From: Clavelina lepadiformis
Taxonomy: Eukaryota; Chordata; Ascidiacea; Aplousobranchia; Clavelinidae
Direction: 5' to 3'
Length of the DNA stretch: 64,000 nucleotides
Assembly (NCBI RefSeq): GCF_947623445.1
Contig: NC_135241.1
Span: 23,934,501 to 23,998,500, forward strand
Part shown: positions 1,931 through 37,400 of the stretch, in pieces
How the letters are laid out: each line of letters begins with the position of its first letter
Numbering within the stretch: the stretch's first letter is position 1
Notes under the pieces: model-generated
Databases searched by the model: none
The model's input: only the letters and a program-made list of their open reading frames with translations
Told to the model about the DNA's origin: nothing
Program-made: the position numbers and the translations under genes

Positions 1931-4900
1931 GACGTATAATGTCGTTTCAGCTTTTGAAACTGCGACATGTCCGGATGATTTTATGAAAATCTCCAAATAA
2001 GCGAGAGAATGAGACTTGGAATTGGTTGCCCCGAACGCGGAACTGATTTCTGTAGCGGGTGGATTGCAATTCACAACTTCTGCTTTTTTTTTCTCATGTT
2101 ACTGTGCATGAGTTGGCCCTTGAAGAGAATATTCTCAGTTATTATCAAGTCTGTTGTTTACCAGGTCATAATAATCCACGTCTTTTCTATGTAGTGTAGT
2201 AAAGTATACCATCTAAGATTTTAATATCACATTAATGCTTTTTCGATGCAAAGTTTGATATTTTTTAAAGTATTTGGCCATCTATATTGCGTAATATAAT
2301 TATACATGGTATGATGTTTGCTTCGTTTTGGCTTTCCTGGCTCAAGCTTCTTCTGTGCTTGTTAAGAGCGCCACCTATAGGAAGATATACAGACAAGTAT
2401 CTCACCACAACCAGTCGCAAAAGAATAACATTTACCGCGATATCAAGCTTCGGCAGAACGAAGTAATAATGAGGATCATGTGAATTAATGCAAACAAGTT
2501 TCAATGCTTCTGCGTAAATAAATGCATATTTGACGCCTAGATAAGTGTAGCCTATATAAAGCATTTTTGTTTTAAATACGTGAGCCATGATTTCTATGTA
2601 ACTTTGCATGCAATTGATCTTGACCCGCGGGCAAAGTCATTACCAATAAGGTGCTGAGATAAACACAAGCAGGGTCATGTCCAAACAGTCACGACGTAGC
2701 CGTTAATAACAAGTACATAATATAATAACCGGTTGGCGGAAAACAATAACAAAATCTTGCCAAATTAATTTGCGGACGACGTCGCCATATTTCTAATGAA
2801 GTTGTTGAAAGAAGCCAAAAATGTTTCAAGACATTATTAAATTAAAAAATTTAAATTTGTACAAAATCCCTTTTGGGTAAAGTTCAACTGACAATCGTTC
2901 ACTTCAGAATAAATTGCACAAAGAAGTTGCAGCTTCAGCGCACAGCATTGTTACGAGAGAGATGAACCAGACTTGTGATTGACACTTTGGCGACTCCTTT
3001 GTCTGTGGTCTAATTATTTACATTTTATTAAGTTTTTTTTGTGAGACGATTCAATTATATTTAAGTTCCAGAGAAAAGTTTCAGTTTAATCTAATAACGT
3101 CATAACACAAGATTTCCGGACATTATTGCTTAACAAAAAAAAACGTTGTGAAAGATTTGAAAACATAGGCTATATGGGTAACATTTTAAAGTTTTCCGGA
3201 CTTTTTTATGATATTATGTATAGCAGTAGCTATAGGTTTAACTAAATGCAATTTATTCGTATTACAGTCTTACACTATAGGTTGTATAGAGCAACTCCAA
3301 ATTCTAAAGAGCCCTATAATTAACTATCCTAATTTCCTATTAATTCCCTAACCCCTAATTTCTTTCCTATGAGAGAATTCAATTCTTTAGAAGAAAGTAA
3401 AACCACCGATGTTAACAGTGACAATGGCGGTGTTTGCAGTAATTTAACAAAAATTTTAAACAAACTTGAAAATCGTAGAAATTTTACGGCCGTCATAAAC
3501 TATCAGGTTCAACCCGAAGACTCATATAAATTTAAGAGACGTCCTAGCTGAGTCCTTGGCGAAACCTTAACCGTTTCATTAGCAGCGATAACGACCTTGG
3601 GTGTGGCCGCTTCGGGTCAAATGTCAACCGCAAAGATAACTGTGTCTTGTTGATTTACTACCTTGGTACCCTTGTGACGTCATAGTGTATCGCCCCCTAG
3701 GTAAACATGTCATATTCGGGTTAATCGGGATTGACATTACGAGTCAAAAGTCTCGTTTTTGACAGCGGGACTTTTTGAATGCTGACGAAGTCGTATTTTA
3801 TTTTAAGTCCGGGTTTAAGTTTCCTTAAATCGTTTGACGTCCCGCATTGTCAAGATATCCCTGTGACATTGTTCAATATAAATCTTGCAACCTTACAATT
3901 TGTTATGTAAAATCATTTCTGCGACAATGCCTGAAAGGTTAAAAACCTCAAACGAACTTACAAGTTTAGATCCGGCTCCGGCCCAGATTGATAAATTTTA
4001 TGAATTTTTTTTATGTATTTGATAAAAAACGCGAATTTTTTTGGGCTACTGTTGGGCAAAAGACGCGCGTGGTTGTTAATATTTCTTGGCTTGTCTTAGT
4101 CGCTTCAGGGCCCAGCAGAGTTTTTACACCATTGCCGTTACCAGCGGCAATATTTAAGCAAACCTACTGTTAAAAATATGTGAGCTTCGTCGGTGGAACT
4201 GCCATCACCATAAAGGGGATAAATTAGATCTGTGATGACGTAATAGCCTTGCGGTATAAATGAATCGTTTTTACTGTACCAAAAATCTTTTTCGAAACAA
4301 AAAATTCTTTGGCTAAGAAATGACATCAGTGAATCTTCGACGAATAAGATTATCCTCCGGGACTAGGTAAACTTGACCACCCGCAGAAAATCACACAAGT
4401 TCGGGGTCAAGTTACTTTGCTTAGCAACATTAAGTTGTTACTATTCCTCTTATGTCGTCGAACAATGTTATTATTACCATAACAATCTTCTACGTAGCTG
4501 ACTGACCACACCATCTGTCACACTCGGACCTATCAGTTCGCGTAAATAGATTCGTGGGAAAAAGATTGTTATAAGCGAAACGTGGAGAGTTAATTTCTAA
4601 AGGAAATCCGTCTCAAATAAACTTGTTCCTTTACATATTAAACAAAAACAATGAGAAAAAGGTCAAACCAAGAACTGCTGTGATTTGTGACCCCTTGCTG
4701 TGTTTTGCAGTAAATTTCACGCCAATTATATTCCACAACGACGACCGCGATAAGTTGTCTGTCAAAAAATCTCTGAACCAATTGCTTAATCCACGTTTTT
4801 GAAACAGCGATAAAACTACACTACAATGTGATCGATAAAAAAATTTAATCGCATCTTATTAAGGTTTAAGCCATAAGTGTAGAAAGATAAATCTTTTGAT

Positions 4901-17080: not shown

Positions 17081-18298
17081 ATGGATGTCAATTTGAAGTT
17101 AATTATTGAAATAGATTGTGACCCAGAAGACGATGCAGCAAACTTCATGTAAGATACAATATGCCTATTAATCAATTAGCCAACTGCTGTTGAGCTTGTC
17201 CTGTATGGCGGTCACCCAGAGTGTACGTTCTCGCCAATTTATAATAAACAGCCAAGCAAAACAACAAATTAATGTAAGTCGTAACGAATATTTGAAGAAA
17301 TGCTGTACTGATATATTGATGTCATTTAATCTGATAATGAAAATATTTATTTGCAGATGTGGACAATGTTTGCATAACTGTACAAGTAATGAAACTTTGC
17401 TGGCTCATCAAAAAACTGCTAACGGTATATTTGTTTTTTGTTTGAAACTTATTTCATTTGGAGCTCTATCATTGGCAGATTCCGATTAAAAAAAATCAAA
17501 TAAACTTAATTTTACACTTGTCTTGCAGAATCTTCTTGCAATAATGTTACAAGAGAAAAGCTGATGGAATGGTGGGAAACAGTGGGTGGCGTTAAAACAG
17601 ATCTAACTGCAGATGCGGTTAACTATTTTATGAAGCTATTTTCTTCGTACAGTTCACCGGATGAACTGTTTCATAAATTCTCCTGTGATGGAATTACGTG
17701 CATCCCATCACTATTTTTCTTGCCAAGAAAATTGTCACTATGTTTAACACGAAAATTGTTTGATGTATTTTTATCACACGTTACCACTGTTGCACACAAC
17801 AAAAAGGGGAAACACTTGACATTACACAAGTTAACCCGAGATGAAGAATTCATAATTCAGTACATAGGTGGTTATATTTTGCAGAAACTCACTAAGCGCT
17901 GTATAAATCCGAGAGAAATAGATCTATTGTCTTGTTTAACTGATTATAGTAATGAAACCACTAATAGTTCCTTGATTTCCGCTTTAAATAATAACAATTA
18001 TGGACATCTTACAGTTCCAGCGAAATCACTAGTGAAATTGTTGATGTATGTAGAAAGTGTCTTTAGGAAACAAGACATAAAGGAGCACATCATGGAAAGT
18101 TGCATGTCTTCTTTGAGTGTTTGTAACATAAAAGATATATTTGAAAATCTTGTTTTTGATGAATGTTTGCAAAAATTGTGCATGAAAATATGTAAATTTT
18201 ACGTGAAGATTAGATGCTATCAAAAAGCCAATCATTTAAATTCAGTACTGCATGTAACCTCTGATCAAAATGTAAGTCTGAGAAAATCATTAAAATGA
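17081..18298 (+). CDS. Second gene of the P-type element, unknown protein of 301 aa
   Basis: Three exons join in phase: 17081-17148, 17357-17424, 17529-18298 (TGA). The product starts MDVNLKLIIEIDCDPEDD, has a small Cys/His cluster (CGQCLHNC..LLAHQ) near residues 24-40, and ends in a Lys-rich tail. From memory, YIGGYILQKLTKRC and LTVPAKSLVKLLMYVESVFRK-like text (the latter around 18014-18073) resemble the C-terminal part of P/THAP9-type transposases, but I cannot name the protein. It runs towards the minus-strand transposase gene; the two stop 109 bases apart. It is uninterrupted over 302 codons, unlike the transposase. It could be an accessory protein or a displaced, inverted transposase C-terminus. 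Confidence 0.6.
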
Positions 18299-24172: not shown

Positions 24173-27100
24173 CTAAATAATAAGTTTTATAACAAAGGAA
24201 AATCCTGCTCCAGCGGCAAGGCCAACAGACATTGCGAAACCGAGCAACGAACCAGCTGTTTCAGAATGCTCACTTTCCACACGTCTGCAAGTTGTAAATA
24301 TATCGGTCATTAAACATTTTTCTTGCAATATGCCAACAACCTTTGTCGGGTTTGTGCCTATGTCTAGCATACTCAATTTAAAGCACAATACAATGGGATT
24401 TTTTATGAGGGCAACTTCTAAAAATACCTTGGTCCATATTGCATTGATAAAGTGCTTAGATGTCCGTTGGACAAACCAAAGATTGCGATGAAAACAATGA
24501 AATATGCATCGTTGTTGAATATAACTGGCAGCCTGGTGCGGGGCTGGACATTGCACAAAGCAAAAAGCGGCATAAATGCCACTCTTAATATGACCAGGAA
24601 CACCAGCAACGAAGTTTGCTTCTCTGATGGCTGAAAATAATGAAAAACGTGAAATTTCTCGAAGTTCTCGTCTATTCATTCAGCTAATTACCGCAATGAA
24701 ATGCCAAATTAATAAACCGTTATCGAGAATGTTGAGGTTAAGGGTGACGATGCAGTATTGGGTTAAGTTTCATCTGCAAAGCGGCAAAAGCAATAATCTG
24801 TACAATTACTGGTGACAAGTTGCAACAAAACGATGCTGCACAGAAATCCGACATGGTGTGAGCTGCCTTGGCAGAGGCTCGCGCTCTCTAAATATTTTCT
24901 AAATTTGCACTACTATGCATGTATACTTATAGACAATCCGACATACATAATGTAGATATCCAGCCATGCTTCTGCCAATCCAATCGGTGAGATTAAAAAG
25001 TAAGAAACAGCTCACGGGGCTGAAGTAGAGAGCTAAACAAAAGCAAATTTTTTAGTTGACTGCACATAACAATCTCATTAATGCTCATTAGGATATAGTA
25101 CTTGCATTATTTCATATAATGTAAGTCGCATATAATGTAAATTGGTTACTCAAATATTTCAACATTTAGTTGAATGTGTACTCACTATTCCACGTAGTTT
25201 TCTGTGACATTGAGTGAATGCTTGATGTTATTGACGGAAAACACGCCAAAGTGACAAAAAAAACAAAAATAACAGAGAAGCAGTGCGGCCACACTTTCTT
25301 GAATATTGACCACAGAGGGGGAACAAACTTTGGCTACAAATATAGAAAATAAAAGCATAAAACTGCTAGAATGGAAGATTATCCCGATTTGAAACCTGAA
25401 ATCCAATAATCCAAACTATGAGTTAATACTTTCATCGGACTACATCAAATGACTTCACAAACTAAAAGCACCAATGAGTAAGTGTCTGCCTTCATGCAAC
25501 AATCTCGTCATAGAAATGTCCACCTGTGTAACATCGGTGTCCATCAAAAGAGGTCGGTTCTCGTCATCTGAATCACTCCAAGCACAAACACGTTGCAAAG
25601 GATTTGAAGTTGAGTCATTTCTCGATCTTGACTTTCCTGCTTGGGAGTTGACAGAATGGTGATTTTCTGTGATAATTAATCATTCAATCAGTGATTTGAA
25701 GAATACGGAAAGTGCATGTAAGTTTTAATATTTATGAAAAAGGCACAGAAATGATTTAACAAACATGGTGCGTGAATTTATTGAAGCATCATAGAAATGC
25801 AGTGAATCAGTCTTAAAGTGATTTGTCTAAAACTGGTTATGAATTTGCGAAAGATGCTTTGTATCTTCGAAACATGGCTTTAGTGCAGTTATTTGAAGGT
25901 CAAACCGGGCCTGATGCGACACACACATTAGCGATTCTGTATCTTGGTTCAAGCATTCATTTATACTAGCCCGCTCAACTGTCAATTCTGTTTCAAACAT
26001 AATTTAATATTCTGCACCCAAAATTAATAAAACCCCATTAGTTCAAAATAGCAACACATTCAAACAATGATGTCCCAGACTCACTTGCTGCTGTCAAAGT
26101 TTCATTTATATCTGCAAACCTCTTCTGATTGTGGTGGTATTTGTAAAAATTCTACGAAAACATTTTCATGCAACGTAAAATGTTACAAAAAAATTAAACT
26201 TGACGTACTGTCATACAATTTGTTATGGTATATCACAAAACAACTAAAGAGCATGATAACATGTGCTGCTGAGTGTTGAAGACACTCGTAGAAAAGGATT
26301 CAAAAACATTTTATGGCTCACATTTTTTGAAAGCAGCCTGTAAGACAGGCCAGTTATAAAGAGTACTGCAATTGCAATGAGGAAATATGCAAATGCACTG
26401 CTTGTGGGATCGTGACCAACTGAAAGAAAGTTTTAAAAAGTTATCCATAACGAGCCTACGATGCTAAATACATATGTGTCGTAACCAACTAAGCATACTA
26501 TTAATGCAATGTAACACACAGAACAGATCACAAATGTATAAGCTGAGCTACAATTAATTGATACATACAACCGATAGTAGCAATCATTGCGACTGCAGCA
26601 AAAATTCCTCCCATACCCTGGATAGAAAACACAAAATTGAACATAAAAGATTAACTTCAATGATATATGATGATATGATGGCAATAATGATATGATTCAA
26701 TGATATGATTAATGATATGATAGTGATATTCAATGATATGATAGCAATGATTAACTTCAATGATATAAGCACAATATTGCCATGTTACCTGCCCTGCCAT
26801 AACAGCCTGCAGATATTTCTGCGGTAGACCGGCTGCGATCCCAAAAATGCTTGACTGGATGACGGCAGAAGCGCAGTTTAACAAGACGATGCTGATCATT
26901 GTGACAGCAAAGAATGTCTGTTGCCAACTACTGCTGTCTATCTGCAAGATCGTAAGAAAACAGCTTAATCAACAAATTTAAGTTTGCCGGACACCAATAC
27001 ATTTATTGTCTTGAAACAAGTATATAAGTCTGTTAAATAATAAGTATCATAATAAGTTAAATGAAGATTACATTACAACATAGTAATAATAAGTTACATT

Positions 27101-29097: not shown

Positions 29098-31064
29098 TGC
29101 GTTTACCGCATTCTTGTATTGTTAAAAATGAGATTCAGTCAGAATACAATTCCTAAATCGTTATTTCAAGCATGAAATTTCTACACACGAAGTCCACTCC
29201 ACAAAAAGACAAACGGGCGTGCTTCCATAAAATCCGCACTTGCTAATACGTGCGCTTCTATCACAAGACACCGTCGCAATGTGGAAAGTATAACCGTATC
29301 CTTTTTGTTCAACCTTTAGACCTTATAACACGCTACTCCTCATATACGCACCACAAACCTTTAATCGTTATGATTAGAACGCTGGGAAGCAATTAACATT
29401 AATTGCAAATTTATAAGTAGGGACACCAAACTGTGACAATAAAAACATTGTGTCCTTGGTTTGGTTGCTAAATTGCCATCTTCATGTTGTAGCACATTTT
29501 TAATAATGTTTGCAACACAATGTTGTAACTATATACACAAAATATTGTTTTGCATTTTGCAAACCGGTTAGCCTTTAGATTTTCCACTTTCTCCGGTTAT
29601 TTACGTATTTTTCGCACCGCAATTTGTACGGATAATGGCAAAAATAAACCGTACAACAGAAAGCATAACCATGCGCTTGATTACAACACAAAGTATGTAG
29701 CCTAATAGAAACACAGAATACAAAGAAGCACTTTAGGTGTTAATCTTTAATTAATTAACACCATCTTTCGCAATCTTGTGCTTGTTTCATCAGGCGTACT
29801 AGGACGGTAAAGTTTGCAAATTGCAGGAATGCGGCATTGGCGCAATTCTTTGTTCTCACAAAACAAATGCAAAGACAACGGAATACACTCGATTATGACG
29901 TAATTTTACAGCCGATCACAAACGCAAGCCATGCATGACATAAAAGACGTTTGTTGGTAAACGGCAAAATTTATACAGTAGGCCAATATGTAACGTAGAT
30001 TTGTTAAACTTTATTATGAATTAATTGACCTTGTGAGTCACATATTTCAAAAAAGTTAATTAAAAAACTCGCAATAAAACACCGCTACAAGACGGTAACC
30101 AGGGCTCGAGCGATGAGGAACCAACGGTGGCTTTAAGTCGTGCAAAGATTATATCACAACAAAGTGTAATACAAAGCGTCTACAGCAGGGATGTCCAACC
30201 TGCGGCCCGCCTGAGATTTTTGTGCGACCCGCTAGTCATTTTCACTCCAAAAGTATGTACTTCATGTATACATTTTGCTTGAAATTTAATAAGTTTTGCG
30301 GCCCATTCAATTATTTCAAGTGACAATGCGGCCCACTATAATAAAAGGTTGGATATCCCTGCTAAAGAGTGTTGAGCAGCGAGGTGCCAGAATTTACCGT
30401 ATACCATAGTTTTCGACGGAATTGTTTCCTTGAATGGCAAGATTATGTGTCGTACCTATAAACAACGTACGAAATATAAATCATAGCCCAGCGAGAGACA
30501 TTACGCTATGCCTGTTATTGCTGTGCAGCTGCTACTGGTCCATAGCTGAGGTTAACTTCAATTTGCTTTTATTGAACGCACAAATGCCAAAGTACGCAGT
30601 TTCAAAGCAGAGGAAACAAGTGATATGAAAGATAACAAGAACAAAATAAGCCTTTTTCGGCATCAGAATTGGGTCGCCACCTAGCGACCAGGATAGTAAA
30701 AGCTACAGTTGCGCTGCCAGCAATAATTAATCAGCTAAACTGTAAGATTTCACCACCTTGAGCCCGTGGATAAAACTGATCAAGTACGGAGAATAGTATT
30801 CGATTAAGTTAATTTGCATACATAGGCAGTTTAGGTACGAAAATTGTCTGTTGTGAGAGTATCAATGCCTAAATGTAAACAGCATAAAAAGCATCACAGG
30901 GCTTGAATAACAAGCTTGAAAGTAATTGCTGTGTATTAATCAGCTAAAACGTACAGCAAAGACAAGATATTGCACAAGCAAAAACTAGCAACAAACACTG
31001 CACAATGTATTATATAATAATTCTGATGCAATATGTAGAATAAAAATCCTTGATAAACATTTAG
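29098..31064. other. 5' flank of ENT copy A
   Basis: Intergenic DNA holding the presumed promoter of copy A and one MITE-like element (30186-30361). No exon recognised. Confidence 0.5.
30186..30361. mobile_element. Small MITE with CAGGGATGTCCAACC ends
   Basis: 176 bp bounded by CAGGGATGTCCAACC and its near-exact inverse (GGTTGGATATCCCTG, one mismatch). GCGGCCC occurs just inside both ends (GCGGCCCGC and GCGGCCCAC). CAGGG ends and short length suggest a hAT-derived MITE. I could not find a convincing 8-bp target duplication, so the family is tentative. Confidence 0.65.
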
Positions 31065-32458
31065 GAGTCATTCCATGTATAATCAACCAGGCCCTGTAAC
31101 CACTACTCTTGGATTTTGATAATTTCAATATATGTTATAGACCTTGGAAAAAGCCGAAGATTAAAAAAAAAATTTTGAAAATATCTCCAGGCGTTTTCGA
31201 GTTATTCAAGTTTGAAATTTTCGCCACACGATGGCTTTTGGCTAGTGAGCACTGGTCACGCTTTATGATTTTCTTTAATATCTTTATTTCTGAAGGTAGA
31301 ATAATAAAACAAATGTTGAATTTACCATTTTTGGGGTCAAGGAATTCATTTAAGCACATAAAAAACCTATATCACACCTCCTTCATGGAGTAATTTAAGT
31401 TTTTTCATTGATGTCAAAGTTCAAGTTTACGACGCAATTACAAAAATAGCAATCGCATTGGAAACATAATTTTTGCACTTTTGTGTAGCATGGTTCATGT
31501 ATTTTCATGTATCCAAAAATTGGAAACTTGTTTTTTGTCCTTTAGGAATAAAGTTGGTTTTAACAGCAAGCACTATTTTTAAGATTCTTATAAGATATAA
31601 AATGCAGATTTGAGCAATATCGTATAACTGGTCATGCATATATAATTATATATGCAAGGTTGCAATTCCAAGGCACCAACTGCTAGTGTTTAAAGATTAT
31701 TCACCAAAAACATTAATTACTGCCTGCTAAAGGTGCACTCTGAGAGAGGTTACAGTAAATTTGAGTTCCTTTTTTGAACTTCAATTTTGCCTACTCCTAT
31801 TTTGATTCTTATTATTTTATTATTATTATTCTTAGTATTATTTTGATTTCATTTGTGTATGAAAATGATGAATTTGCCCGCTTAATGCCTGGAATTAAAG
31901 ATTATGTAAGTGTTTCCAAAAATTTTCATAAGCAAAAGAAGCTCATTTTTTGCAATTTGAAGGAATTATGTGCCACATTTTGTGAAAAATATCCCGAGCT
32001 GAAGATTGGATTCTCAAAGTTTTGTTCACTCCATCCCAAATGGTGTGTCCCCGTATCGTCCAAAGGCACTCATTCTGTCTGTGTGTATCCAACATCAAAA
32101 TGCAATCCTTCTGGTTGCTGCTGCCAACAACAATGAAACATACAAAACATTGATTGACAAAATAGTGTGCAGCACGGAGAACAAAATGTGCATGTTGCAT
32201 CGTTGTGAACAATGTCCTGGGTCTCAAGCACTAGAAGGCTTTTTACTTGCACAGTATGATGAGAAACTTGATGATGAAGTCCAATGCCAATAATGGAAGT
32301 CTACAGACACGATGGATGTTATCACGGTGTTAATGATGAGATATGAACGGATTCAACAAATTGTAAGAGTTTTGGATGACCTTACGAAGCATTCATTCAT
32401 AGCTAAATGCCAATCTAGATACTTAAACTCCAGAAAGAGTTCTTTAACAGATGATACT
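31065..32458 (+). repeat. Left arm of the foldback element
   Basis: About 1.39 kb, reverse complement of 32908-34308. Contains the plus-strand frame 31774-32136 and its continuation in another frame from 32085; the frame change shows the copy is dead as a gene. Confidence 0.85.
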
Positions 32459-32907
32459 TGTGTGATTTTGCTGGATTTCGCTGAGAATTACACTTTTACA
32501 ATCTAAGATGAAGTACAAAGCTATCACTGGAACCAGCAGCAATGTACAATCCACTCCGCTGTTGTGTATTACATGCAAGATCACATCTGGTCAGATGTAG
32601 GTCTTTGTAAGCTAGCTGTCTTAACCAGTCGTTTAACAGTACGTCCAACACCATCACATGGAGATTTCCCGTGACTGGTTGCAAAAAAGGACCAACACGC
32701 TTCCAGGTTGAAATCACACTTGTGACGGCACAGATTCAGCATATTTTTATAATTTTTATACTGTCCAGCGCGACCGTCCGAGAAATATTCAACTTTAGTA
32801 ATGGTGCTGGACAAGCTTGGAATCAATGCAGTGAGTTTGTACAAAAGCCCATGCACAAAAGCTGTCTCATGTGTTAAGTCATCTGAAACAATGCAAAATG
32901 ACTGCTG

Positions 32908-34308
32908 GTATCATCTGTTAAAGAACTCTACTGGAGTTTAAGTATCTAGATTGGCATTTAGCTATGAATGAATGCTTCGTAAGGTCATCCAAAACTCTTA
33001 CAATTTGTTGAATCCGTTCATATCTCATCATTAACACCGTGATAACATCCATCGTGTCTGTAGACTTCCATTATTGGCATTGGACTTCATCATCAAGTTT
33101 CTCATCATACTGTGCAAGTAAAAAGCCTTCTAGTGCTTGAGACCCAGGACATTGTTCACAACGATGCAACATGCACATTTTGTTCTCCGTGCTGCACACT
33201 ATTTTGTCAATCAATGTTTTGTATGTTTCATTGTTGTTGGCAGCAGCAACCAGAAGGATTGCATTTTGATGTTGGATACACACAGACAGAATGAGTGCCT
33301 TTGGACGATACGGGGACACACCATTTGGGATGGAGTGAACAAAACTTTGAGAATCCAATCTTCAGCTCGAGATATTTTTCACAAAATGTGGCATATAATT
33401 TCTTCAAATTGCACAAAATGAGCTTCTTTTGCTTATGAAAATTTTTGGAAACACTTACATAATCTTTAATTCCAGGCATTAAGCGGGCAAATTCATCATT
33501 TTCATACATAAATGAAATCAAAATAATAGTAAGAATAATAATAATAAAATAATAAGAATCAAAATAGGAGTAGGCAAAATTGAAGTTCAAAAAAGGAACT
33601 CAAATTTACTGTAACCTCTCTCAGAGTGCACCTTTAGCAGGCAGTAATTAATGTTTTTGGTGAATAATCTTTAAACACTAGCAGTTGGTGCCTTGGAATT
33701 GCAACCTTGCATATATAATTATATATGCATGACCAGTTATACGATATTGCTCAAATCTGCATTTTATATCTTATAAGAATCTTAAAAATAGTGCTTGCTG
33801 TTAAAACCAACTTTATTCCTAAAGGACAAAAAACAAGTTTCCAATTTTTGGATACATGAAAATACATGAACCATGCTACACAAAAGTGCAAAAATTATGT
33901 TTCCAATGCGATTGCTATTTTTGTAATTGCGTCGTAAACTTGAACTTTGACATCAATGAAAAAACTTAAATTACTCCATGAAGGAGGTGTGATATAGGTT
34001 TTTTATGTGCTTAAATGAATTCCTTGACCCCAAAAATGGTAAATTCAACATTTGTTTTATTATTCTACCTTCAGAAATAAAGATATTAAAGAAAATCATA
34101 AAGCGTGACCAGTGCTCACTAGCCAAAAGCCATCGTGTGGCGAAAATTTCAAACTTGAATAACTCGAAAACGCCTGGAGATATTTTCAAAATTTTTTTTT
34201 TAATCTTCGGCTTTTTCCAAGGTCTATAACATATATTGAAATTATCAAAATCCAAGAGTAGTGGTTACAAATTTTAAAAAAATTGGTTGATTATACATGG
34301 AATGACTC
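32908..34308 (-). repeat. Right arm of the foldback element
   Basis: About 1.40 kb. Same protein frames as the left arm but on the minus strand (33590-33228 and 33358-33071). Lacks the DFAENY-containing segment that the left copy keeps in the spacer. Confidence 0.85.
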
Positions 34309-34464
34309 TTAGGTTACAAGCTGAACTGTGCGGCAACGCTTATGTGGAACTGTTGGGAACAAATTGAAAGGAACTGACGAAATAAATAGCACAATAAACG
34401 CTATGTCTATCGCACATAAAGATGCAATACACATTTCAAATAAAAATTACGCCAATTATGTTAT

Positions 34465-37400
34465 CTAGATGGCCAGTCTGAGAGCAAATGAAAATCCAGC
34501 GCCGGCGGTAAGTCCGACACAAATTGCAAATACCAGCAAAGTACCCACGATTCCAGTGTGTTCTTTTTCAACCAACCTGAAAAATAAAAAACATATTCCA
34601 CAAACGGATTATCGAGAAACATTATCATTTAGATGAAAGGTATTGTCCATAAGATTGTGCACATTGCTTTTACGCACTTTATGATATACGATAAAGATTG
34701 TGGATTATGACAAGGTTCCACGATCACCAGTATTAAATCAGTCAATTGTTTCCACGATAAATTTTACATCAATAATGTGAAAAAATACCTTGGTCCATAT
34801 TGCATTGATAAAGTGCTAAGATGTCCATTGGACAAACCAAAGATTGCCATGAAAACGATGAAATATGCATCGTTGTTGAATATAACTGGCAGCCTGGTGC
34901 GGGGCTGGACATTGCACAAAGCAAAAAGCGGCATAAATGCCACTCTTAATATGACCAGGAACACCAGCAACGAAGTTTGCTTCTCTGATGGCTGAAAATA
35001 TATCAAATTATAACTTTTGTTGGCAAGAAGATTGCGTAACACAAAATAACAGCAACACATAATATTTAGCTATTAATATTTACATCTATAATAATGATTG
35101 CCAGTGCTGCTATAATTATGAAATCTACATGTTATGGAATATAGATATTACATAATGCCAATATCCTGCCGTGGTACGTCCAATCCAGTCAGTTGCATTA
35201 TAAAGAAGAAAACAGCATACCGGTGAAAAATATAACGCTGCAAAATAAAACCAGGATGTAAGTTTATGTCTGCTGAGTCATGTCAATGAAAAGTTGACTG
35301 TTGTTGAATTTACTCACTGCTCCAAGTTGACTTTTGTGACATTGACTGTGTGCTTGCTGTTATTGATGGAAAGCACGCCAATGTGACAAAAAATATCAAA
35401 GTAAGAGATAAGCAATGTGGAAAAGTCTTCTTGAAAATGGACCACAGCGGAGGAAAAGTTTTGGTCTTAAAATGCACAACAAATTAAACAGTTTATCAAA
35501 AACTACTGCAAAACTGTTACAATTTTAAAACATGTATCAGAACAAATGGTACCGAGGCAATTCTAAAAATTAGTATCAAGATTTAAATTGCAACGTAACT
35601 GACAAAAAACCTGTCACATAAAGCATAGGCAAAGGAACTAAAAACCCATTTTTCTTTCATCCTCATAACAATTAAACTCTCAACATCTGTACCAACCTGC
35701 GTTGTCTCAGCATTCGTAAGCAAAGGCTCAAGATCATCGTCAAAATTCTCATCAACAAATACTTGATCTCTCGCCTCATTATTGTTCAATAGATGCCCGT
35801 GTCCTGTAAGAATACGGTTTAACGATAACATGTAACAAACGAGCTAGAGTTGAACACCAAGCTGCACATATTTGACAAGGCTCAAGTAGAGAATGATTAA
35901 GCCTAAGCTAAATGTTGTAAGTTCTGAAACATTAGCAAAGAAAGTTATGAGTAGAAAGAAAAAACGTTACCATTTCTGGAATATTCACCTTTATTTGGGT
36001 TTTTGTTAAGTTTGTAATGGTACAAGTAGAACACCTATATTAAACAAAAAATCTGTTTTAAAACGATAAAATAGGAATCAACAGCCAGCCAAGGTTGGTT
36101 TAACTTACATTTTTTGACAGTGATGCGTAGCACAATAATGTTACCACAAGAACGCCTGTTGCAATGAGAAAATAAGAAAATGCACTATTGGTGGGATTTT
36201 TGCTGACTGAAACACATAGCATAGTTGATTAGCATTCAGATAGCCAAGAAAACCATTCACAAAATCCACTGACACAAACATTTACTTTCTAACGGTTGAA
36301 GAATGTATTCTGTGAGTATAGTTTCAAGTCAAACAGCCACTCAAGTACAACAAAAATAAAAGATTTGTAAATGTAACTGATGTCAATTGCAGAGCAGCAA
36401 TTGAGATCACATATATTTTCATACTCACATCCAATAGCAAATATCATTGCCACAGAAGCAAATATTCCACTTATTCCCTGATAACAAGAAAAATATGCAG
36501 AGGTTATCTATTATTAAGTCAAATACACATATTTATATCCCTAAACTTTAGACATAATGTTACCTTTGACATGACAGAAACAAATTTTTTCAACAAAAGC
36601 AAACAAAAAAATTAACGGAATTACCTGGCCTGCCATAATCGCTTGAACATACTTGGAAGGCATGCCCGACACAATTGCAAAAATACTTGATTGAAACACA
36701 GCTGAACCGGAATTAAGCGCAACAATCAGAATCATTGTGACAATGAAAAATGCTTGCTGCCATTTGGTTGTATCAACCTGTCATGTCAACACAAACATCA
36801 AGTAAAGAAAACACAAAAGTGATGATGCATGAAACGTTGTCATTAACCAATATTGGAATTGAACGCTGACTCACTTTTACCAAAGCGACAGTGATTATGA
36901 AGAAAATAATTTGACAAACGAGAGATCCCAGTATACGAATCTTTTCATTTGTCCTGTAAGTAATGTGGAAAGGTTCTAATAATATAATTGTAATTATCAC
37001 ATTTTTAATCATCTGATGTATGTATTCAGACTACGTTCAGTAACTGTCATAATTTGCTACATACATGCACCTTTCTAGAAATAAAATAATTAGAAATTGA
37101 GAAATAAGACTTGAAACTGTTCCACAAATTGACAGCGTATTTTCAAATAAGTTTTGCAGGTAAGTGTACTGAACGTCTTCGGAAGTATTTTTATCCCCGG
37201 TCATGTTAACAGGAATCATGCTTGTGTTACGAAACTTGTACATCCAATACTTCGAAGAAAAACAACATATAAGGGAACAATGCGCATAGTCCCGAGAAAG
37301 TTAAGCAATTCAAGGATGTTTAGTTGTTTACAAGGTCTGCTTACTTCATTCGCTGTTATAAAAAAATTCCAAGGAAGCAAACCACCGATTCCTATGATGT

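Follow-up and report, generated by a model that had tools for sequence, protein, structure and literature searches.

A probable Galileo/Foldback-like family of palindromic transposons with unlike tips in Clavelina lepadiformis

In the Galileo transposons of Drosophila (P superfamily), as described in excerpts of PMC3573991, terminal repeats grow by recruiting internal sequence, which gives the arrangement TIR1-F1-F1-TIR2. The repeats of one copy are 98-100% identical; repair, recombination and conversion between the repeats have been proposed, and "two-TIR" non-autonomous copies exist (same excerpts). Mu killer of maize is a partial inverted duplication of a transposase gene, with terminal repeat segments, beside a flanking gene (PMC3440606, in part). 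Sola2 transposons have AT-rich 4-bp target duplications, a transposase of 888 aa and, in the examples given, terminal repeats of 12-21 bp (PMC3627910, in part); Sola transposons are also treated in PMC10294476. Here we describe an element in a 64,000-nucleotide stretch of the Clavelina lepadiformis genome (the window) that shares features with each of these systems. We assign a probability of roughly 0.85 to the reading that it belongs to a Galileo/Foldback-like, terminal-repeat-expanded non-autonomous family, shaped by arm conversion and inversion and mobilised in trans with unlike ends.

The window element is a 3244-bp inverted repeat (31065-34308) with TTAG on either side (31061..31064 and 34309..34312), so that the bounding duplication proposed by an earlier, sequence-only reading is present. 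That reading had also described near-identical inverted arms, and these are borne out by 1339 ungapped nucleotides, given as 100% identical in the alignment output, which, together with outer and inner pieces, occupy exactly 31065-34308; over arm positions 60-1365, 6 of 1306 sites differ. Each arm consists of a terminal segment, a 36-bp AT-rich filler and an inverted internal segment. Read from left to right on the coordinates of an autonomous-type copy found elsewhere in the genome (C5:21280329-21284712), the element runs 4384-3650, filler, 2028-2771, 3099-2777, gap, 2654-2028, filler, 3650-4384. The outer left arm (31065..31810, plus strand) is homologous to the last 735 bp on the 3' side of the autonomous-type element (4384 to 3650 in transposase sense), and the AT-rich filler at the terminal/internal fusion (31811..31846, plus) joins it to the inner left arm (31847..32588, plus; transposase sense 2028-2771), which carries DFAENY at 32474-32491 in a broken reading frame. 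At the palindrome centre junction (32585..32588), positions 2771 and 3099 are joined through ATCT, a 4-bp microhomology common to both element positions. The single-copy centre (32585..32907, minus; transposase sense 2777-3099) carries FSDG..QYKN..ATSHGK and is followed, with a 15-bp overlap at 32893-32907, by the inner right arm (32893..33517, minus; transposase sense 2028-2654), from which the DFAENY block (~137 bp) is deleted. The mirror copy of the 36-bp filler (33518..33553, minus) and the outer right arm (33554..34308, minus), which mirrors the outer left arm except at its tip, complete the element. Behind the tips, the outer arms (746 and 755 bp) run on beyond the ~530-bp terminal repeat, into sequence that in the autonomous-type copy is present at the 3' end and nowhere else (3650-3863). 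The earlier claim that each half keeps a segment of its own agrees with this layout, with DFAENY in the left arm only and FSDG..QYKN in the single-copy centre, which runs on into the right arm. The same reading's picture of tail-to-tail partial copies stands as regards a palindromic transposon derivative and fails as regards "two partial copies", the arms being terminal/inverted-internal fusions made through filler.

The autonomous-type copy is 4384 bp long, has an AGAT duplication and ends in terminal inverted repeats of 530 and 521 bp that are 96% identical. It contains a 709-aa open frame with both DFAENY and FSDGCAGQYKN, and an additional 161-aa open frame that may be a second exon with the C-terminal part. 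Two further loci, L043 and L052, resemble it. In L042, L047, L051 and L052, ~370 bp absent from C5:21280329-21284712 is present at element position 3643, and may reflect an intron, an insertion or a deletion. A distinct, rearranged element, L047 (C3:17594370-17596932), has ~740 bp of 3'-end sequence at its 5'-tip end as well; it is perhaps an intermediate stage in terminal-repeat growth. Open frames of 864, 797 and 582 aa at C1:7299065, C4:20264911 and C3:9139080, respectively, have 53% identity to the query over the FSDG region and are, by this likeness, taken to be other families of the same transposase kind in the genome. Neither the fragments nor the 709-aa frame gave a credible Pfam or PDB sequence match; BK_channel_a, Rubella_E1 and Rns were rejected as transposase domains, with scores under the cut-off or attributable to chance. 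Separately, the window holds a 262-aa open frame at 17510-18298 (plus strand) with no Pfam match, which we take to resemble a THAP9/P-element-type transposase.

The sequence-only reading had suggested looking for other two-armed copies in the same genome (209 Mb), and that search was positive. Querying with the left arm returned at least 44 matches from the best 40 of 122 candidates, many of them as facing pairs, including at least 16 near-full-length palindromic copies (the window copy, el, and L010-L024). The palindromic copies that are shorter seem to be products of deletion. The DFAENY deletion of the window copy is lacking in L016, L017 and L019-L024, with smaller gaps there in L019-L024. 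L016 and L017 are 0.04% apart and have different duplications, which points to recent movement. On the minus strand of L017 (C1:22737963-22741315), element positions 657-1835 form a 393-aa open frame, likewise present in the near-identical sister L016, that spans the transposase core from DFAENY to FSDG..QYKN..TVKR; a truncated protein or a repressor is a possible product. L030 (C4:1000553) and L031 (C4:2059928) are one-armed copies inside a duplicated stretch of >5 kb at 96% identity and, since both lie in that stretch, appear to go back to a single insertion that a segmental duplication copied.

The position of the window copy raises the possibility of a silencing role. An open stretch at 34468..34608 (minus) probably holds the final coding piece of a nucleoside-transporter-like gene; alone it reaches E 0.018 and misses the curated cut-off, and the adjacent piece, 34767-35069, matches Nucleoside_tran with E 7.7e-21. 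Two such transporter-like genes lie in the window (24173-24679 and 34468-35069, both minus), their open-frame parts nearly repeated between them. In the sense of the gene, its probable stop is ~157 bp ahead of the palindrome. No AATAAA or ATTAAA occurs between this stop and the palindrome, and the nearest such signals past the gene are in the right arm, ATTAAA first at 34204 and another at 34061. Because the first polyA-type signals are inside the right arm, near the gene end, a read-through hairpin of the Mu-killer type is possible. The copies might then be Mu-killer-like silencers whose main effect is siRNA or piRNA silencing of the family by read-through hairpin RNA, as would suit long arms homologous to the transposase gene and the similar anatomy of Mu killer, for which such action is proposed (PMC3440606, in part). 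The signals at 34204 and 34061, however, could stop the transcript in the first arm, before a hairpin forms, and any silencing can at most be partial, given that an intact-frame copy and near-identical palindromes still exist. The sequence-only reading had raised small-RNA silencing, for which Mu killer is a close precedent (PMC3440606, in part); we regard silencing as an unlikely main effect of these copies.

According to the sequence-only reading, both outer tips were the same 5' end and the palindrome moved on two such ends. The tips are indeed identical over their first 25 nucleotides, and the arms further in are nearly so. The diagnostic segment, 26-39 bp from the element end, contradicts this: the left tip (31065..31094, plus) continues after the 25 common nucleotides with GGCCC (31090-31094), as does the 3' tip of the autonomous-type copy, and the right tip (34270..34308, minus) continues with ATTTTTTTAAAATT (34270-34283), the kind found at the 5' tip of that copy. 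The 3' end of the normal element, which the earlier reading allowed might match neither tip, does match. Throughout the family the ~25 common nucleotides are followed by a tag of 5 nt (GGCCC, 3'-type) or of 14 nt (the 5'-type sequence above or a close variant). One 5'-type and one 3'-type tip were found in 28 of 28 two-ended elements. Genome-wide tip searches returned 43 and 41 matches, of which 62 of the 84 typed ends entered the pairing and 22 were unpaired; all 31 convergent pairs were unlike (31/31). Four more divergent facing pairs were also unlike (4/4), with somewhat altered tags. L029, which has one extra T in its 5' tip, is unlike too, and L053 and L054 (~65-78% match to the autonomous-type element over longer pieces) have both tip types; these three, like the four facing pairs, were read by eye. 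Altogether, unlike tips were found in 38 of 38 typed pairs, a count that covers ends with a partner in reach. With the two tips matching opposite ends of the autonomous-type element and every typed pair unlike, movement on two copies of the same 5' end is very improbable.

Mobilisation with unlike ends, as in our preferred reading, leaves the cause of this asymmetry to be considered. The short tag perhaps stays different since the moving enzyme needs two unlike ends; the unlike tips may reflect either such a transposase requirement or conversion halting short of the ends. A broader proposal, which we advance tentatively and hold rather doubtful as a whole, joins an unlike-ends transposase rule, selection keeping the tip asymmetry, and palindromes that spread and whose hairpin RNA restrains the autonomous element. 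If it is true, the 14-versus-5-nt subterminal tag would mark an end as 5' or 3', and synapsis would be limited to unlike pairs; selection at transposition would therefore keep the asymmetry while arm repair wipes out other differences. Since the rule would survive full palindromisation, palindromes could go on spreading. In outcome, such a rule would resemble the 12/23 rule of V(D)J recombination.

The arms were compared at 16 of 24 loci, L025-L032 being excluded as truncated, rearranged, single-armed or short and the loci from L041 on not included; L015 gave 1123 sites, and the others ~1300. For a palindromic ancestor without arm exchange, the arm difference within a copy is expected to equal or exceed the same-arm difference between copies. 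The reverse was observed, with means of 0.68% within copies and 2.85% between same-type arms of different copies, and we infer arm exchange because of this reversal. In 458 of 480 non-independent comparisons, the within-copy value was the lower one. In the arm tree, the two arms of a copy are sister branches in 10 of 16 copies. Two clades, of 8 and 6 copies, are separated by 17 sites fixed in both arms, and no side-specific fixed site was found over arm positions 60-1365. Exceptions are L013 and L014, whose arms are 1.77% and 1.62% apart and do not group by copy; so are the pairs L016/L017 and el/L010, in which an arm is closer, or almost so, to its counterpart in the second copy than to its own partner arm. 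The outer repeat of four autonomous-type copies differs by 1.18% within and 2.01% between copies, and over the same stretch the palindromes differ by 0.80% and 2.06%. Because the end repeats of autonomous-type copies behave alike, homogenisation is not special to palindromes; judging from these comparisons, it characterises the end repeats of the family and extends over 1.3 kb in the palindromes. The two halves of a palindrome appear to overwrite each other, thereby staying nearly identical.

The centre also varies between copies, being contiguous with the 3'-tip arm in 9 and with the 5'-tip arm in 7. The window copy and its nearest relative, L010, are 0.31% apart and have opposite centre orientations. 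Parsimony requires at least four orientation changes on the copy tree, in which support is weak at some nodes. Orientation clustered on this tree no more strongly than random labels did (share at or below observed, 0.145), and we accordingly claim the minimum number of changes only. Crossing over between the inverted arms is the simplest cause of the two orientations. Taken on the comparison of copies, arm conversion and inversion are strongly indicated.

Evidence that the palindromes moved as such comes from their flanks and junctions. The palindromic layout recurs at 16 loci, each with flanks of its own, far more than chance would give. An exact 4-bp duplication, equal in length to that of the autonomous-type copy, borders 15 of the 16 long palindromes, in line with the earlier claim of transposition as one unit with a 4-bp duplication. 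Among two-ended elements, palindromic or not, the flanking duplication is exact in 25 of 28 and has one mismatched base in the remaining three, and its sequence varies (TTAG, AGTG, CATT, ACTA, CTAG, TAAT, AACA, ATAT and others). From these duplications we conclude that the palindromes, window copy included, were inserted as units. All 16 long palindromes have the terminal/internal fusion in both arms, the filler being 30 bp in L024. A centre-junction probe found the ATCT join in 15 of 16, L018 having lost it through deletion. The common fusion and common centre therefore show that one palindromic ancestor was copied by transposition. Had every palindrome instead formed independently in place by fold-back repair, never moving as a palindrome, arms more alike within than between copies would be natural; the same fusion in both arms of 16 copies, a centre junction common to 15 of them and exact duplications at 15 make this highly improbable, and separate palindromisation at each site was rejected on the common junctions. 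Palindromes are well known to cause assembly errors, but an artefact is scarcely credible for a layout that recurs on several scaffolds, at 16 loci with differing flanks, and that has asymmetric tips and centre, in a HiFi assembly (kaClaLepa1.1) with a reported QV of 67.4 (PMC10884593, in part).

The history that we propose for this terminal-repeat-expanded family would begin with terminal inverted repeats growing inward until nearly the whole of a non-autonomous cut-and-paste element was a palindrome. The palindrome would have been born by fold-back or template switch at a 4-bp microhomology during gap repair, as the microhomology and the filler suggest. From a single palindromic ancestor, as the common junctions show, copies arose via transposition as units, as the duplications show. 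Arm-to-arm repair (gene conversion and crossing over), perhaps at excision breaks, would extend, homogenise and flip the arms. An autonomous transposase would mobilise the palindromes in trans, as their common tips and the broken frames here suggest. Each copy would keep one 5'-type and one 3'-type tip owing either to a transposase that pairs unlike ends or to conversion tracts that miss the last 40 bp.

This one genome offers a natural series that starts with ~530-bp terminal repeats and leads to a mobile palindrome that is nearly complete; within it, palindrome formation, arm conversion, centre inversion and transposition can be separated from one another. The tip tag, kept in every typed two-ended element, affords a specific and cheap test of a eukaryotic transposase demanding unlike ends. 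The family also lends itself to the question of whether small-RNA silencing in a tunicate is seeded by mobile inverted repeats.

As to known systems, the terminal inverted repeats and the 4-bp target-site duplication of fixed length (exact in 25 of 28) are those of a cut-and-paste transposon. Among the literature matches listed on palindromic transposons, on Galileo, on Mu killer and on the concerted evolution of terminal repeats, Galileo and Mu killer came nearest and no identical system appeared. The family shares with Sola2, as described in PMC3627910, the AT-rich 4-bp duplication and the size of the transposase (888 aa versus 709 aa plus a possible further exon), and differs, on a comparison by description only, in having long repeats where the Sola2 examples have 12-21 bp; from the duplications and protein size, the superfamily is perhaps Sola2-like. 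Mu killer, in the partial account cited above, has an anatomy similar to that of the Clavelina palindrome, namely an inverted transposase part, terminal repeats and an adjoining gene, but is one locus with shown silencing activity, whereas the Clavelina palindromes are a dispersed mobile family known by sequence.

Among the literature matches listed, we judge Galileo to be the nearest structural kind. Repeats lengthened by internal sequence and homogenised within copies, with L013 and L014 as exceptions, place the Clavelina family structurally with Galileo/Foldback elements, and the likeness, as far as the excerpted Galileo account reaches, lies in long, internally extended, within-copy homogenised repeats and in non-autonomous two-repeat copies. 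Membership of the P superfamily is a different matter, the 709-aa transposase frame having no P-family Pfam match. Galileo target duplications are longer than 4 bp, and those of the Clavelina family are 4 bp. The arms here, unlike those of Galileo, take in transposase coding sequence, and the centre occurs in both orientations. Within the Clavelina family, the tips are unlike in every typed pair. To what is described for Galileo, the Clavelina elements add a near-complete palindrome that spreads as a family, two centre orientations and preserved unlike tips.
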